DNA of 64,000 nt from Methanogenium sp. (GTDB lineage Archaea; Halobacteriota; Methanomicrobia; Methanomicrobiales; Methanomicrobiaceae). How positions within the stretch are numbered: position 1 is the stretch's first letter; every line of letters starts with the position of its first letter. The stretch covers positions 1-64,000 of the forward strand of contig JAUVCV010000004.1 in assembly GCA_030595665.1 (NCBI GenBank). Reading direction: 5' to 3'. The notes beneath the pieces are model-generated. The model saw only the letters and a program-made list of their open reading frames with translations, ran no database searches and was not told where the DNA came from. Positions 4,825 to 12,429 of this stretch are shown here, one piece after another. Position numbers and translations under genes: made by a program.

Positions 4825-5871
4825 TCAGTTCTGATTGCGTTTCAGCCGTTTTAACTGCCGCAATATCATCTCTCTTCTGACAATGAAAACGCTTGCAAGG
4901 ACTCCGACAAATACATTGAAATAATACAGAATAAGACGCCAGAGAAGAACAAACACACCTACAATCGATGACGGTACAAACAGGCCATAGAGTGATGTGG
5001 CTGTTATTTCTGCAACACCTGAACTTCCCGGGGTAAGGGGGATCATCATGATAATTGCAATAATCAGTTGTACGATAAAAGATTCAATGAAAAATGGTTT
5101 GGATCCAATGGCAATCAGAATAACTGATGCAATTAAAAATTCAAATGTCCAATAAATGGAGGTAAGGACAAATCCCCATACCAGTCCTGATTTTGCTTTG
5201 CTGGCAAATTTTGTGAGTGCGCTGTTAAAGTTGTCAACTTCAGAATCAATAGAATTCATCAGTTTATCAACTTTGTCTGATTTCCACCGTTTTGTAAGCC
5301 ATCCGGATATTTTATACAGAATCCGTTTCAGAAATTCTGGATGGCGGATGGAATACACAAAGAGAACCATAAAGGAAATGAGCATAACCCATATAACAAG
5401 CAATGGCGTTGTCAGATTCACCTCCAGTGTTGCAACCTGGAAAACAAGCAGGAAAAATGCTAATATGCCAATGAGGCCCAGTACAATCCCATCGATAACC
5501 CGTTCCATAATCACAACGGCTGTTGCATCACCTATCGGTACATTCGCCCGATAGAGTTCGTGAATTCTAACCGGTTCCCCTCCCGCCTGGGAAGGGGTGA
5601 TGGCAGCAACCAGAAGATTTGCAAAGACTGCGTTCAGTGCATGGAGAAAGGGTACATGATACCCAAGAGATTGTGACATCATTTTCAGTCTCATACCCCA
5701 GGCCATCAATGCAATAATGTGGAGAACCAGTGCAAGCAGTAAAAATGAGTAATTGACGTTCTTCAGATAGGTGATTGTTTCATCATCAATAGTAAACCAA
5801 AGAACGCCAACGAGTACAATTGTGCTGAAACCAACAGAGAGGGCCAACCATTTCCATTGTGAACTTTCCAT
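4825..5871 (-). CDS. UPF0104 / flippase-like integral membrane protein
   Basis: This 348-residue protein has about eight hydrophobic segments. It belongs by pattern to the UPF0104 family (lysylphosphatidylglycerol synthase membrane-domain fold, which includes archaeal AglD-like proteins). The family signature PSQAGGEP is at residues 93-100, followed by a second conserved MERVIDG motif. A third, SSGVAE, lies in the C-terminal half. The family is thought to handle or flip lipid-linked substrates in the cytoplasmic membrane, but the substrate here is unknown. A longer frame begins 13 codons upstream, but the ATG at 5871 has GGAGAT about ten bases ahead and starts directly before the first membrane segment. 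It is transcribed in the same direction as the DUF357 and dph5 genes upstream. Confidence 0.8.
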   Translation of the reverse strand: MESSQWKWLALSVGFSTIVLVGVLWFTIDDETITYLKNVNYSFLLLALVLHIIALMAWGMRLKMMSQSLGYHVPFLHALNAVFANLLVAAITPSQAGGEPVRIHELYRANVPIGDATAVVIMERVIDGIVLGLIGILAFFLLVFQVATLEVNLTTPLLVIWVMLISFMVLFVYSIRHPEFLKRILYKISGWLTKRWKSDKVDKLMNSIDSEVDNFNSALTKFASKAKSGLVWGFVLTSIYWTFEFLIASVILIAIGSKPFFIESFIVQLIIAIIMMIPLTPGSSGVAEITATSLYGLFVPSSIVGVFVLLWRLILYYFNVFVGVLASVFIVRREMILRQLKRLKRNQN

Positions 5872-5945
5872 GAATATATTATCTCCATTCCCGCAGGATC
5901 GATGAACCATTTACGTTTTCTGGCAAACTATAAACTCTTTTTACT

Positions 5946-7533: not shown

Positions 7534-8133
7534 ATGATTCGTTATATATATGAGAGATTTCTGATCCGGGGATGTGTTGATATTCCCAGCAACATCTGTA
7601 TTATGCTCTCTGAAGATGAAGCGCGACATGCACCTGAAAAAATCATTGAGGTTATTAACTGGAGCAGAGAATGCGGCATAAAATCTCTCATTTTTCATAT
7701 TGATACCGATATGCCGGATTCCCTGATTTCAGAAATCATGAAATTCAGAGATCTCTTTGGGCCTGTTCGTGTTACGCTCTATTCACCTCTGGGAGAATCG
7801 GTGCTTCATGACGGATCAGAGCTTCCTGATATTATTATTGCAGTGGGTATGAGCGGCAGGGAAGAGATTGTTCGTTCCGTCCGCGAAATCGCAGAAAAAG
7901 GAATCAGTCCTGATGATATTGACGAAAAAATGCTTGAATCTCATTTGACGTTTCATTATGAACCGGATTTTGTGATTAAAACCGGAGATAACCATCTGAT
8001 GGATTTTATGATCTGGCAGTCTGTTTATTCTGAACTTTTTTTCACCGATGTAAACTGGCAGACATTCAGAAAAATAGATTTTTTCCGGGCCCTGAGGGAC
8101 TATCAGATACGCAAAAGACGTTTTGGAAGATAG
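7534..8133 (+). CDS. Degenerate cis-prenyltransferase homologue (UppS-like)
   Basis: This 199-residue protein aligns with undecaprenyl-diphosphate-synthase-type enzymes. I see IAVGMSGREEIVRS where the family has IAYGGRxEIV, an IKTGDN segment for IRTGNE, YSELFF before the WQTFRKIDFF helix, and an RRFG at residues 195-198. The catalytic DGNxRxA motif near the N-terminus is replaced by IMLSEDEAR, so the Asp that binds diphosphate is gone. It lacks about 60 residues of the canonical length. It is therefore unlikely to be active alone. It could be the non-catalytic subunit of a two-subunit enzyme, as known for eukaryotic NgBR/DHDDS and some archaea. The ATG at 7534 has GGTG six bases upstream; a GTG lies three codons earlier. 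It is convergent with the canonical gene and overlaps its end by 31 bases. Confidence 0.8.
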   Translation: MIRYIYERFLIRGCVDIPSNICIMLSEDEARHAPEKIIEVINWSRECGIKSLIFHIDTDMPDSLISEIMKFRDLFGPVRVTLYSPLGESVLHDGSELPDIIIAVGMSGREEIVRSVREIAEKGISPDDIDEKMLESHLTFHYEPDFVIKTGDNHLMDFMIWQSVYSELFFTDVNWQTFRKIDFFRALRDYQIRKRRFGR

Positions 8134-8891
8134 CCACTCTTTACCCGCTCGTCATACACACGTATCCCTCTTAAAAGGTCTATCTTTCTGAAGAGGGGCC
8201 AATACGGAGCACAGAAGTAGACCGTGGATTTGTATCCGTTTGCAAACCATGGGAGAAAATTTGATGTTCTCTTCTCGTTTCCGGTACGAATAATCAGATC
8301 AACGGGGGGAAGGTGCAGTTCTCCCCGAATTTTGGTGGTAAAAAGATCGGTGTTTATCATATCGATGGTAATTTTGTTGTTTTTCAGGTCTTCGAGAATT
8401 TCCCGTGATGCGCGAACGATTTCATTTCTGCCACCATATGCCAGAGCAATATTCAGATGGAATTGTGTATAGTCTTTCGTTGCCTCTTCTGCTTCCAGTA
8501 TGGTTGTGAGAAGATTTTCCGGAATCTGGCTGCGATCCCCTACCACCTGAAGGCAGATTTTATTTTTGTGAACACGCTGGTCATCGATTAGTGCTCTGAA
8601 TTTTTCAATAAATAGTGAGAATAAGTCATCGAGTTCTTCATCTGATCGGTTGAAATTTTCTGTGGAAAATGAGTATAATGTCACATTCCGGACGCCAATT
8701 TCCTGAGCCCATTCAAGAACCTCTTCTGAGGTCTGTGCACCTTTTTTATGGCCATAGGAGGTATTTTGGCCCTGATTTTTTGCATAGCGCCTGTTCCCGT
8801 CCTGGATTATTGCAATATGATCCGGAACATGTGTTACACTCTTCATCAAATGACGTTCGTAGCACTGATTGAGAAATTCTCTTGGTTTCAA
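8103..8891 (-). CDS. uppS: cis-Prenyltransferase (undecaprenyl/polyprenyl diphosphate synthase family)
   Basis: This enzyme condenses isopentenyl diphosphate units in cis onto an allylic primer. In archaea the product supplies the long polyprenyl (dolichol-type) carrier for glycosylation. It has 262 residues. The catalytic motif DGNRRYA starts at Asp31. ENFNRS, ALAYGGRNEIV, IIRTGNEKRTSNFLPW and YWPLF follow in the family order. It ends in GYLPKRLLRI and lacks the RRFG/RxG C-terminal motif of single-subunit bacterial enzymes. That motif is instead kept by the degenerate convergent homologue. The start overlaps the stop of the radical SAM gene by four bases (ATGA), placing it third in an operon lysS-radical SAM-uppS. 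Confidence 0.92.
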   Translation of the reverse strand: MKPREFLNQCYERHLMKSVTHVPDHIAIIQDGNRRYAKNQGQNTSYGHKKGAQTSEEVLEWAQEIGVRNVTLYSFSTENFNRSDEELDDLFSLFIEKFRALIDDQRVHKNKICLQVVGDRSQIPENLLTTILEAEEATKDYTQFHLNIALAYGGRNEIVRASREILEDLKNNKITIDMINTDLFTTKIRGELHLPPVDLIIRTGNEKRTSNFLPWFANGYKSTVYFCAPYWPLFRKIDLLRGIRVYDERVKSGYLPKRLLRI

Positions 8892-9856
8892 AGGGGGATG
8901 ACCTCCACAATTATCCCTTCACCGGGATATCGTTCAATGATATATTTTTTACCCGGGTATTTTTCCGGGTTTTCTGCAAGAATCCACCAGGCAGTTTCAA
9001 TATTTCCGTCTCTCTCTTCCCACATACCTTCTTCAATATCATGGGCCTGTCCGGAATATTCCCAGACGCCATACATCAGTGTGCCGTCATCGGTGACTTC
9101 TTCAAATTCACGAGCAGTATTTTCTGCAGTGCGAATCAGCCGGTTTCTCAACTGTACTGAGTCCTTGAAACTGGATGAACACCAATGGACTTTGGGATTT
9201 TTGAGAATCTCTGTTGCCCACCTCTTTACATCTTCGACTGCATTATGGTAGTTGTCTTCAAGTGAAAGATCCCTCCCTCTCATTGCTTCTGCGTTTGTTT
9301 CACTCCATTCCAGTTCATTAATATTGAACCAGTCAACAGAGTCGACAGCAGGGATGAGATAATGAAGTCCCTCTAATGAAGGAACTTCAATGGTGACTTC
9401 AAATCCAAGGTTCTTTGCAGTCCGAATTGACTCCGGGAACGGTGATTCCTGAAAATGTTCCCACATTTCCTCAGGTGGGTGGAATCGTATTTCGTCCACA
9501 CAGCCTATGAGAAGACGCAGAATATCTTCACCCGGAGCAGTCCCTGTGTACAGGTGAATATTGAATGCATCTCCAAATTCTTTTTTCAGGAGAGTGCAGT
9601 AATGTTTTACCCGTTCAGGGACCAGAAAGGGTTCTCCCCCGGTTATACCCGCACCCAGAGCTTCCATCGAATATGCTTCCTCCAGGATATCATCATCAGA
9701 GCAAATGACCCGGTCATTTGCATATGGAGTATCTTTCCCCTTCTTCTCTGATGAAATCGGGCAGTACCAGCAGGTTCTGTTACACCGTCCGGTGACAAAC
9801 AGAACCATTTTCGCGCCTTCGTGGCAGAGTTTGCAGGCTGTACTAAGCACTGGCAT
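8888..9856 (-). CDS. Radical SAM protein of unknown substrate
   Basis: The 322-residue protein carries the radical SAM cluster motif CxxxCxxC (CNRTCWYC, Cys25, Cys29, Cys32) and a GGEP motif at residues 73-76 typical of SAM binding. Two more cysteines at 8 and 11 precede the motif. There is no B12 domain and no C-terminal SPASM-like cysteine cluster. The C-terminal half is rich in acidic and tryptophan residues and is not recognisable to me. It overlaps the end of lysS by 14 bases and the start of uppS by four. It is thus tightly coupled to a tRNA-charging gene and a lipid-carrier gene. A role in tRNA or cofactor modification is possible but is only inference. Confidence 0.85.
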   Translation of the reverse strand: MPVLSTACKLCHEGAKMVLFVTGRCNRTCWYCPISSEKKGKDTPYANDRVICSDDDILEEAYSMEALGAGITGGEPFLVPERVKHYCTLLKKEFGDAFNIHLYTGTAPGEDILRLLIGCVDEIRFHPPEEMWEHFQESPFPESIRTAKNLGFEVTIEVPSLEGLHYLIPAVDSVDWFNINELEWSETNAEAMRGRDLSLEDNYHNAVEDVKRWATEILKNPKVHWCSSSFKDSVQLRNRLIRTAENTAREFEEVTDDGTLMYGVWEYSGQAHDIEEGMWEERDGNIETAWWILAENPEKYPGKKYIIERYPGEGIIVEVIPL

Positions 9857-11381
9857 TCACCGCATCAGTAATTCTCCGGGTGACAAATTCCTCTCCCAGA
9901 GCTTCAAGGAACCATCCCAGTCTGGGGCCACGTTCTTTTCCGAGAATTGCAAGGTAGAGAGCAGTAAATATCTTCTTTGGACTCACTCCGGTATCTTCTC
10001 CAACTTTATACACTGCATTGTGGATGGTCTCAGCCTTCCATTCATCCATTGCAATATACTGTGAAAGAAGAGCACTAAGTGCGTATTTGTCATCTTCTGT
10101 GAATGCAAATACTGCAGGAGGCAGTTCAGTCTGGACCGTGAATTTCACCATTTCAGGTGCATACTCTTTTATCCATATCCGTGCACGTTCTGCACGCGCA
10201 AGCACTGCTTCTTTATTTTCCACATTATATCCGCTCCGGGCAAGAATGTCACAAATGGTATCATTGTCCTGAGCAACCTGGACGACGGTGACCATATGCC
10301 GGAAGGGGATGTCAGTTGCAATTGAGGATATGGCAGAGAGTTCATATTCACGGCTGTCTTTCGTTTCTGCAAGACGTGCATACTCATCAATAAGTGATAA
10401 GAGTCCCATGCCCGGGTCAAAATTAATTGCCCGCTCGGGTCGTGCCCGGACAATCATATACCGGAGAACGTCAGGCGGAACAATGGACAGCATCGCAGTA
10501 ATGGATATGGCAACACCGGTTGATGATGCCATTGCTCCCTTTCCTTTCAGGCTGATCCATTCATATTTGACCGGGAACGGTGCAACTCCGCCAAATATTT
10601 TATCCACTATTTCTCGACCGGTGTCGTATGAACCGCCTGCTGCGGCGTGGTCTTTTCCAAATGGTTCAACGGTAACCCCGAGGTTATACCATCGCATTGG
10701 CCAGTCAACACGCCAGACCAGTTTTCCTTCGCCTTTTGAATAATCAGATACTCCTTCATGTCCGCAGGGGCATCGGTAGGTAACTGATGTAGTCTCCGGG
10801 TCATGGGAGAGAATTTCTGCATTAGCAATTGTGCCGCATTTACTGCATATCGGGTAATAGGGAACCCATGAATCCGGAAGTGTTCTATGTGATACGCGTT
10901 CAAGAATCTCTTTTATGTCATCGGAACGGTTGAGCACTGTCTTGATTTCATCTGCATATCTGCCTGACCGGTAGAGTTCACTTGAGCGCAGGACGGTTGG
11001 GTGCACATCCATTTCCTCCAGGGACTGAAGAAAAGGCTCAAGAAAGTGTTCCGCATAATTTGCATGCTTACCGCAGGGGCAGGGAATGTCACAAAGGGGC
11101 ATTCCAATATATTTAGCATATGAATCCGGGAGAAACGGATACACTTTGCGTAATGGATCAAAATCATCCGCAATGTACACCTGTTCTGCTGAAAGTCCCC
11201 GCTCAACCATCGCTTTATACACCAGATCTCCTGTCAAAACCTCACGCATATTACCGATATGGATTGGTCCGGATGGAGTAATCCCGGTGGCAATATAGTG
11301 TGGTTTTTCCTGATCAACCTGTGCTGCACAGACATCTGCCCAGTGTATTCGCTCCTGAGTTTCTTCTTCCTGTTGCTGCAT
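9843..11381 (-). CDS. lysS: Lysyl-tRNA synthetase, class I
   Basis: This is the archaeal class I LysRS that charges tRNA-Lys, structurally unrelated to bacterial class II enzymes. The HIGH motif is HIGN at residues 41-44 within TPSGPIHIGN. The KMSKS counterpart appears as GKGAMASSTG, where the usual lysine of this loop is replaced. Two cysteine pairs (CPCGKH and CSKCG ... CPCGHEG) look like zinc sites. The open frame extends another 68 codons upstream, but that part reads as non-coding and carries promoter-like sequence. The ATG at 11381 gives 512 residues, the family length. It is the first gene of the operon with the radical SAM gene and uppS, and it diverges from the pilin operon. Confidence 0.93.
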   Translation of the reverse strand: MQQQEEETQERIHWADVCAAQVDQEKPHYIATGITPSGPIHIGNMREVLTGDLVYKAMVERGLSAEQVYIADDFDPLRKVYPFLPDSYAKYIGMPLCDIPCPCGKHANYAEHFLEPFLQSLEEMDVHPTVLRSSELYRSGRYADEIKTVLNRSDDIKEILERVSHRTLPDSWVPYYPICSKCGTIANAEILSHDPETTSVTYRCPCGHEGVSDYSKGEGKLVWRVDWPMRWYNLGVTVEPFGKDHAAAGGSYDTGREIVDKIFGGVAPFPVKYEWISLKGKGAMASSTGVAISITAMLSIVPPDVLRYMIVRARPERAINFDPGMGLLSLIDEYARLAETKDSREYELSAISSIATDIPFRHMVTVVQVAQDNDTICDILARSGYNVENKEAVLARAERARIWIKEYAPEMVKFTVQTELPPAVFAFTEDDKYALSALLSQYIAMDEWKAETIHNAVYKVGEDTGVSPKKIFTALYLAILGKERGPRLGWFLEALGEEFVTRRITDAVNASA

Positions 11382-11499
11382 TGTGTATAATATTTGGCTC
11401 TTCAAGATTAACAATATGTAGGTATTTTCCAATAGCTCTCCCTTTTGTTGTACAAACAGTTTATTAAGGTTATGTGAATATAAGACACATATTTGCCAT

Positions 11500-12429
11500 A
11501 TGAAGAAGTTTCTGAGTGATGAGGGGTTATCAGAAGTCATTGGGTTTATTCTTCTGATAGGGATTCTGGTAGTAGTTCTTACCATGTATCAGACATATTC
11601 TATCCCTGTGCAGGGAAGAGATAATGAAATCAGCCATATGAATGATATTAAAAATACATTTGTATCATATAAAATATCCCAGGATTCCCTCTGGGTAAAT
11701 AAACGGGAAGGGACGATGCTCAGTACAACGCTTGACCTGGGTACGAGGGGAGGATACAGTCAGGGAGGCATGGGGGATATTAGCTTGCTGACACCGCTCG
11801 CCTCCGGAGGCTCTGTGGGAATAAACCAACGGAATGAGAGAGTTCTCGTTACTGTTGGTTCTAATCCGGAGGGGGTCATTATCGTAAAAACCTTGGCTGA
11901 CTATGATCCCGGTTCACTTGAATTTCAGTCAGATAACAACTACTGGATCGACCAGAATTACTATTATCAGCTGGGTGGCGTTTTCCTTGAACAGGAATCG
12001 GGTTCTACCGCTCGGGTTATGCCCCCCCTGACCATCGCACGGTATGGGACGGATGCAGGATATACCGCCAAGGTTGATTTCACCATAATCCGGTTGAATG
12101 GCAGGCAATTGATAAGCGGTACGGGTCCGGTGAGGATCGACACAAACCTGAATAATGGTGGAATTACCGTCTCACCTGATTACGAGGCGATAACAAATGT
12201 TACCATCACCGTTGGTTCAGATAATTCTGAAACACTTTTGATGTGGAACAATCTTTTCAAGGATTCCCTTGCACGATATGGTATTCCCGATGACTGGTAT
12301 AATCTGGCGAATAGTGGCGATGAGGTGTCTCTGGATATTACGGGAAATCAAACCCTTGGTGTCTATGCAAATATCATCCTGGCAAACTATACAACGACTC
12401 TCCAGACGGTTGCAACAGGGATTGAATGA
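11500..12429 (+). CDS. Archaeal type IV pilin-like protein
   Basis: The N-terminus is a class III signal: a short charged leader (MKKFLSDEGL) followed by the hydrophobic segment SEVIGFILLIGILVVVL. That segment would form the pilus core helix after cleavage by an EppA/PibD-type peptidase. The remaining 280 residues are beta-rich and extracellular, with many Thr, Ser and Asn residues and no cysteine. The length (309 residues) is greater than that of a major pilin. It could be a minor pilin or a surface-anchored protein of the same export route. It is the first of three consecutive genes with this N-terminus. The intergenic region to lysS contains a TATA-like GAATATAAG about 20 bases before the start. 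Confidence 0.82.
   Translation: MKKFLSDEGLSEVIGFILLIGILVVVLTMYQTYSIPVQGRDNEISHMNDIKNTFVSYKISQDSLWVNKREGTMLSTTLDLGTRGGYSQGGMGDISLLTPLASGGSVGINQRNERVLVTVGSNPEGVIIVKTLADYDPGSLEFQSDNNYWIDQNYYYQLGGVFLEQESGSTARVMPPLTIARYGTDAGYTAKVDFTIIRLNGRQLISGTGPVRIDTNLNNGGITVSPDYEAITNVTITVGSDNSETLLMWNNLFKDSLARYGIPDDWYNLANSGDEVSLDITGNQTLGVYANIILANYTTTLQTVATGIE

Follow-up and report, generated by a model that had tools for sequence, protein, structure and literature searches.

Two homologues of cis-prenyltransferases (cPTs), here called genes A and B, converge on each other and overlap at their 3′ ends in the window analysed, a stretch of 64,000 nucleotides (contig JAUVCV010000004.1, assembly GCA_030595665.1) from Methanogenium sp. 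The locus raises the question of whether the two genes encode one enzyme in two parts, and whether their tail-to-tail order and the overlap have a bearing on it. The following features (window coordinates) were considered:

7534–8133, plus strand: gene A, putative NUS1/NgBR-like non-catalytic cPT subunit; ATG start, 199 amino acids
8119–8130, plus strand: codons for Arg196-Phe197-Gly198-Arg199 of gene A (RxG plus the terminal residue)
8103–8133, both strands: tail-to-tail overlap of 31 nt; the plus strand codes for RKRRFGR-stop of A and the minus strand for YLPKRLLRI-stop of B
8103–8891, minus strand: gene B, putative DHDDS-like catalytic cPT subunit; TTG start, 262 amino acids
8888–9856, minus strand: radical SAM protein, encoded immediately upstream of B; 40 of the 44 order loci with long flanks have a homologue
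9843–11585, minus strand: class I lysyl-tRNA synthetase (lysS), upstream of the radical SAM gene

Probable division of the active site between two proteins

Gene B carries the motif IIQDGNRRYA and ends in SGYLPKRLLRI-stop, without a homologous RxG. Its PF01255 match spans the whole domain (223 bits, above the curated cut-off). Asp31, Gly32, Asn33, Arg34 and Arg35 were invariant in all 126 sequences covering them, so that DGNRR is present in every B protein covering the motif; Arg82 was invariant in 131/131 and Arg202, Arg208 and Ser210 in 132/132 of the sequences covering them. The spacing D31-R34-R35-R82-R202-R208-S210 is exactly that of human DHDDS (D34-R37-R38-R85-R205-R211-S213; PMC7573591). 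The AlphaFold single-chain model (pLDDT 87.9) gave human DHDDS (6w2l_A) as its best fold match in the PDB. Beyond the last helix the tail of B is not conserved. Nine B proteins from the named set of the order, mostly Methanoculleus, have an R-x-G near the C terminus by chance, displaced from the homologous register by about −2 to +5 residues.

Gene A is the complement of B. The protein (N terminus MIRYIYER, C terminus RKRRFGR-stop) reads IMLSEDEAR near its N terminus in place of the catalytic DGN, and its PF01255 match covers the C-terminal half only (88 bits, above the curated cut-off). Among 167 distinct A proteins none had DGN at the catalytic position, and all ended in [R/K][F/Y/H]G followed by exactly one residue; Lys replaced the Arg of RxG in two. 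In the table of A ends, two rows (ends ARGRRFG and MRGRRFG) show an earlier Gly owing to the wording of the pattern; both are RFG too. The motif content of the two proteins and their 31-base overlap thus agree with the preliminary description of the locus. Neither protein holds both the Asp and the RxG. In the bacterial homodimeric UppS, which has the fold and PF01255 in common with A and B, both are found on one chain, whereas here they are divided between two.

Likeness of A to known proteins depended on the search. With the single sequence, the top matches were bacterial UppS proteins and not NUS1, and phmmer gave no useful match when only the N-terminal half was the query. A profile built from 25 A proteins matched human NUS1 chains over positions 11–196 (E 2.8e-11 to 2.6e-9); the same profile matched UppS and DHDDS over the C-terminal part only, yet with better E-values. 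The full-length reach to NUS1 was obtained by the A family profile only. By profile–profile comparison A aligned end to end with B, the alignment being gapped at the catalytic helix. The AlphaFold single-chain model of A had a pLDDT of 85.8, and its PDB fold matches, among the matches listed, were cPTs, with moderate TM scores of 0.6–0.7.

Enzymes of this divided type are already known, both from eukaryotes, including yeast and human (DHDDS/NgBR), and from Methanosarcina mazei. The human complex (PDB 6W2L, 6Z1N) resembles B/A in that the catalytic subunit lacks RxG and its partner lacks the Asp and ends in RxG plus one residue, as well as in the identical catalytic spacing and the full-length match of the A profile to NUS1. 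The NgBR tail is R290-L291-G292-K293, and deletion of K293 or addition of one Ala lowers activity; the K293 carboxylate sits on DHDDS R37 and R85, and DHDDS E81 and N82, which correspond to Glu78 and Asn79 of B, touch the tail (PMC7573591). There are differences: NgBR has an N-terminal membrane segment, whereas A starts straight at the cPT domain, and DHDDS has a long C-terminal tetramer-forming domain that B of this genome lacks. In M. mazei, as cited in PMC8131916, MM_0618 and MM_1083 together make up a heteromeric cPT with C45–50 products. They are a putative counterpart of A and B, being two cPT homologues that constitute one glycosyl-carrier-lipid enzyme in a member of the same phylum. 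The arrangement differs from that seen here in the sampled genomes of one family (f8, taken as Methanosarcinaceae-like), where the A and B genes lie far apart.

Very probably A and B combine, as its two subunits, into a single heteromeric cPT supplying the polyprenyl diphosphate from which a glycosyl-carrier lipid is made. We infer the physical complex, its activity and its product from sequence features, single-chain folds, conservation, co-occurrence and gene arrangement. Within such a complex B would carry the active site, with Asp31 binding Mg and Arg34, Arg35, Arg82, Arg202, Arg208 and Ser210 binding pyrophosphate. A would retain the cPT fold without an active site, and its C-terminal Arg-Phe-Gly-Arg tail would cross the dimer interface. 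There the backbone and terminal carboxylate of the tail would make the substrate sites of B complete, in the way that NgBR serves DHDDS. An end fixed at one residue beyond the Gly, as in A, is what is expected of a tail-donating subunit. No PF01255 proteins other than A and B were found in the assembly (2.23 Mb, 91% complete), so that there is one cPT gene for each half-site. The genome also encodes an STT3/AglB-type oligosaccharyltransferase, which would use such a lipid; with STT3 present, the product very probably serves as the carrier lipid for glycosylation.

That B might instead act alone as a homodimeric cPT, with A as a separate regulator or in another role, was judged improbable. All catalytic residues are present in B, and the archaeal cPT MM_0014 works as a homodimer without RxG (PMC8131916). 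MM_0014 (PDB 7CAQ) resembles B in lacking RxG, but it ends in TLGG and its sequence match to B is much weaker. Against independent action of B, RxG is absent from B throughout the phylum sample even where A is unlinked, an invariant A tail with a fixed end is hard to explain if there is no active site for it to complete, and kcat of the human complex is about 400-fold above that of homodimeric DHDDS (PMC7573591).

Occurrence of A and B among relatives

The preliminary description had named a lack of A orthologues in relatives as evidence against a heteromer; matches to A came from 192 of the 199 order genomes (191 at E < 1e-28). Its identity across the order was 43–90%, the upper value being reached with a Methanogenium locus (L033), and 45 columns were invariant in an alignment of 25 sequences. 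Gene A is therefore not a chance open reading frame. In the phylum, the A profile was matched in 287 of 295 genomes, about 279 of them at E < 1e-30; eight weak matches (best E 1e-13 to 1e-18) may represent B-type proteins only. The two genes co-occur almost universally in the genomes sampled. Both proteins were read in 39 genomes from outside the order. Irrespective of linkage, DGNRR was present and a homologous RxG absent in every B, and every A had [R/K]xG but lacked the catalytic Asp. Complementary Asp and RxG, co-occurrence, the match of the A profile to NUS1 and the fold match of B to DHDDS, the comparative tests available, thus all support the heteromer first proposed from the motifs.

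Loss of the catalytic Asp and divergence of the N-terminal half could also be read as decay of A, as a paralogue left by duplication of B. The reading frame of A is open in the sampled relatives, however, with 31 invariant columns in 60 sequences, and the gene is kept across the phylum; the chance that A is a decaying copy is close to nil, and this reading was ruled out by conservation.

Three single cases were noted during sampling. One same-genus genome (G107; 2 contigs, 81% complete) gave no A match, probably owing to incompleteness or frameshifts. In family f9, a B-type match (G228:C1:187424-188161) contained one in-frame TGA, which may be either a sequencing error or a genuine stop. An archaeal A gene is also borne by a contig whose title names a Lachnospiraceae MAG from horse faeces (L093); the bin is probably contaminated with methanogen DNA.

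Convergent gene order and its inheritance

All 109 distinct linked A–B pairs (counted by distinct A proteins over all loci) lay on opposite strands, tail to tail. Order loci at which both genes were found were convergent without exception, with an overlap of 13, 27 or 31 nt or a gap of up to about 4 kb. In seven haloarchaea-like families (so called because those whose DNA was read have a high GC content and acidic C-terminal tails) A and B were convergent within 10 kb in 20 of 28 genomes, and they were also convergent in the sampled members of families f7, f11, f16 and f19. In one genome (G323) both genes were on the same strand within about 10 kb, and in families f8, f9, f14 and f22 they were far apart. 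In a tree of A, linkage was confined to one large group (SH-aLRT 81), with six changes needed; this would fit an old gain of linkage followed by repeated losses.

Flanking genes at the same loci served as an internal control for persistence of the link. Of the 44 order loci with long flanks, 40 had B, 40 the radical SAM gene and 32 DPH5. At 36 loci outside the order the counts were 14 for B, 3 for lysS and 1 each for the radical SAM gene and DPH5; the A–B link therefore outlasts the other neighbours. Since lysS adjoins B at loci L141–L143 too, part of the block predates the order. The convergent placement probably goes back far and was for the most part passed on by descent.

Because genes for heteromer subunits are often co-directional pairs (PMC10666635), a convergent order of such genes would be unusual, as the preliminary description had it. 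The arrangement is not, however, particular to this genome: it is inherited throughout the order and shared by several further families of the phylum. A literature search among open-licence papers turned up no account of cPT genes that converge or overlap, and the convergent order of cPT subunit genes seems to be undescribed so far.

Convergent placement might itself have been selected, with antisense RNA or transcription collision tuning the subunit ratio, which is compatible with a heteromer. The uniform orientation of the 109 distinct linked pairs speaks for this, as does the persistence of the link in haloarchaea-like genomes though lysS, the radical SAM gene and DPH5 have left the neighbourhood. 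The A–B spacing is variable, however, some pairs overlapping and others lying more than 1 kb apart; several families lose linkage yet keep both genes, and shared ancestry alone could explain the uniform orientation. Selection for placement was considered rather unlikely.

Expression context and the 31-nt overlap

The TTG start of B and the TGA stop of the radical SAM gene have TTGA in common, and the radical SAM gene overlaps lysS. From this arrangement B is probably translationally coupled to the radical SAM gene and probably closes a lysS–radical SAM–B transcription unit. Upstream of A there are 267 nt of intergenic sequence, from which A would be transcribed by its own promoter, toward that unit. 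Three genes away from gene A, a membrane protein of the LPG_synthase_TM family (PF03706) is encoded at 4825–5910 of the window; this family includes archaeal glycosylation proteins.

Overlaps of 13, 27, 31 or 54 nt were found in 27 of the 109 distinct linked pairs and none in the other 82. The longest (54 nt; L142, G250) was seen in family f19, with genomes of about 1 Mb. Overlap length followed the A tail: Phe in RRFG occurred with the 31-nt overlap nine times and Tyr with the 13-nt overlap twelve times, without crossovers. With Tyr at this position of A, its codon read on the opposite strand is the TAA stop of B that gives the 13-nt overlap. The stop of A could scarcely be moved without damage to the tail, and the free tail of B would run on until a stop is reached; B would thus run into the stop of A because the latter is functionally fixed and the B tail is unconstrained. 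Accounted for in this way, the 31-nt overlap looks incidental, a by-product of the free B tail that needs no function.

The preliminary description had suggested that the overlap preserves linkage. Some overlap does occur in a quarter or so of the distinct pairs (27/109), but linkage persists without it in 82/109, the overlapping B tail is unconserved and the length tracks the Phe/Tyr codon of A. Selection of the overlap as a device keeping A and B together is thus highly improbable, and it was ruled out by the gap in most linked pairs.

If A and B are the subunits of one enzyme, the split cPT with an RxG-donating helper extends from one studied Methanosarcina to most of the sampled genomes of the phylum. 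For the DHDDS/NgBR complex involved in human disease, the pair would provide a small equivalent from archaea that has no membrane segment. What is new is the tail-to-tail order of the genes, which is widely inherited and might have a function; A–B would be a clear case of convergent rather than co-directional subunit genes kept over long evolutionary time, and selected placement, if true, would run against the usual co-directional rule for such genes.
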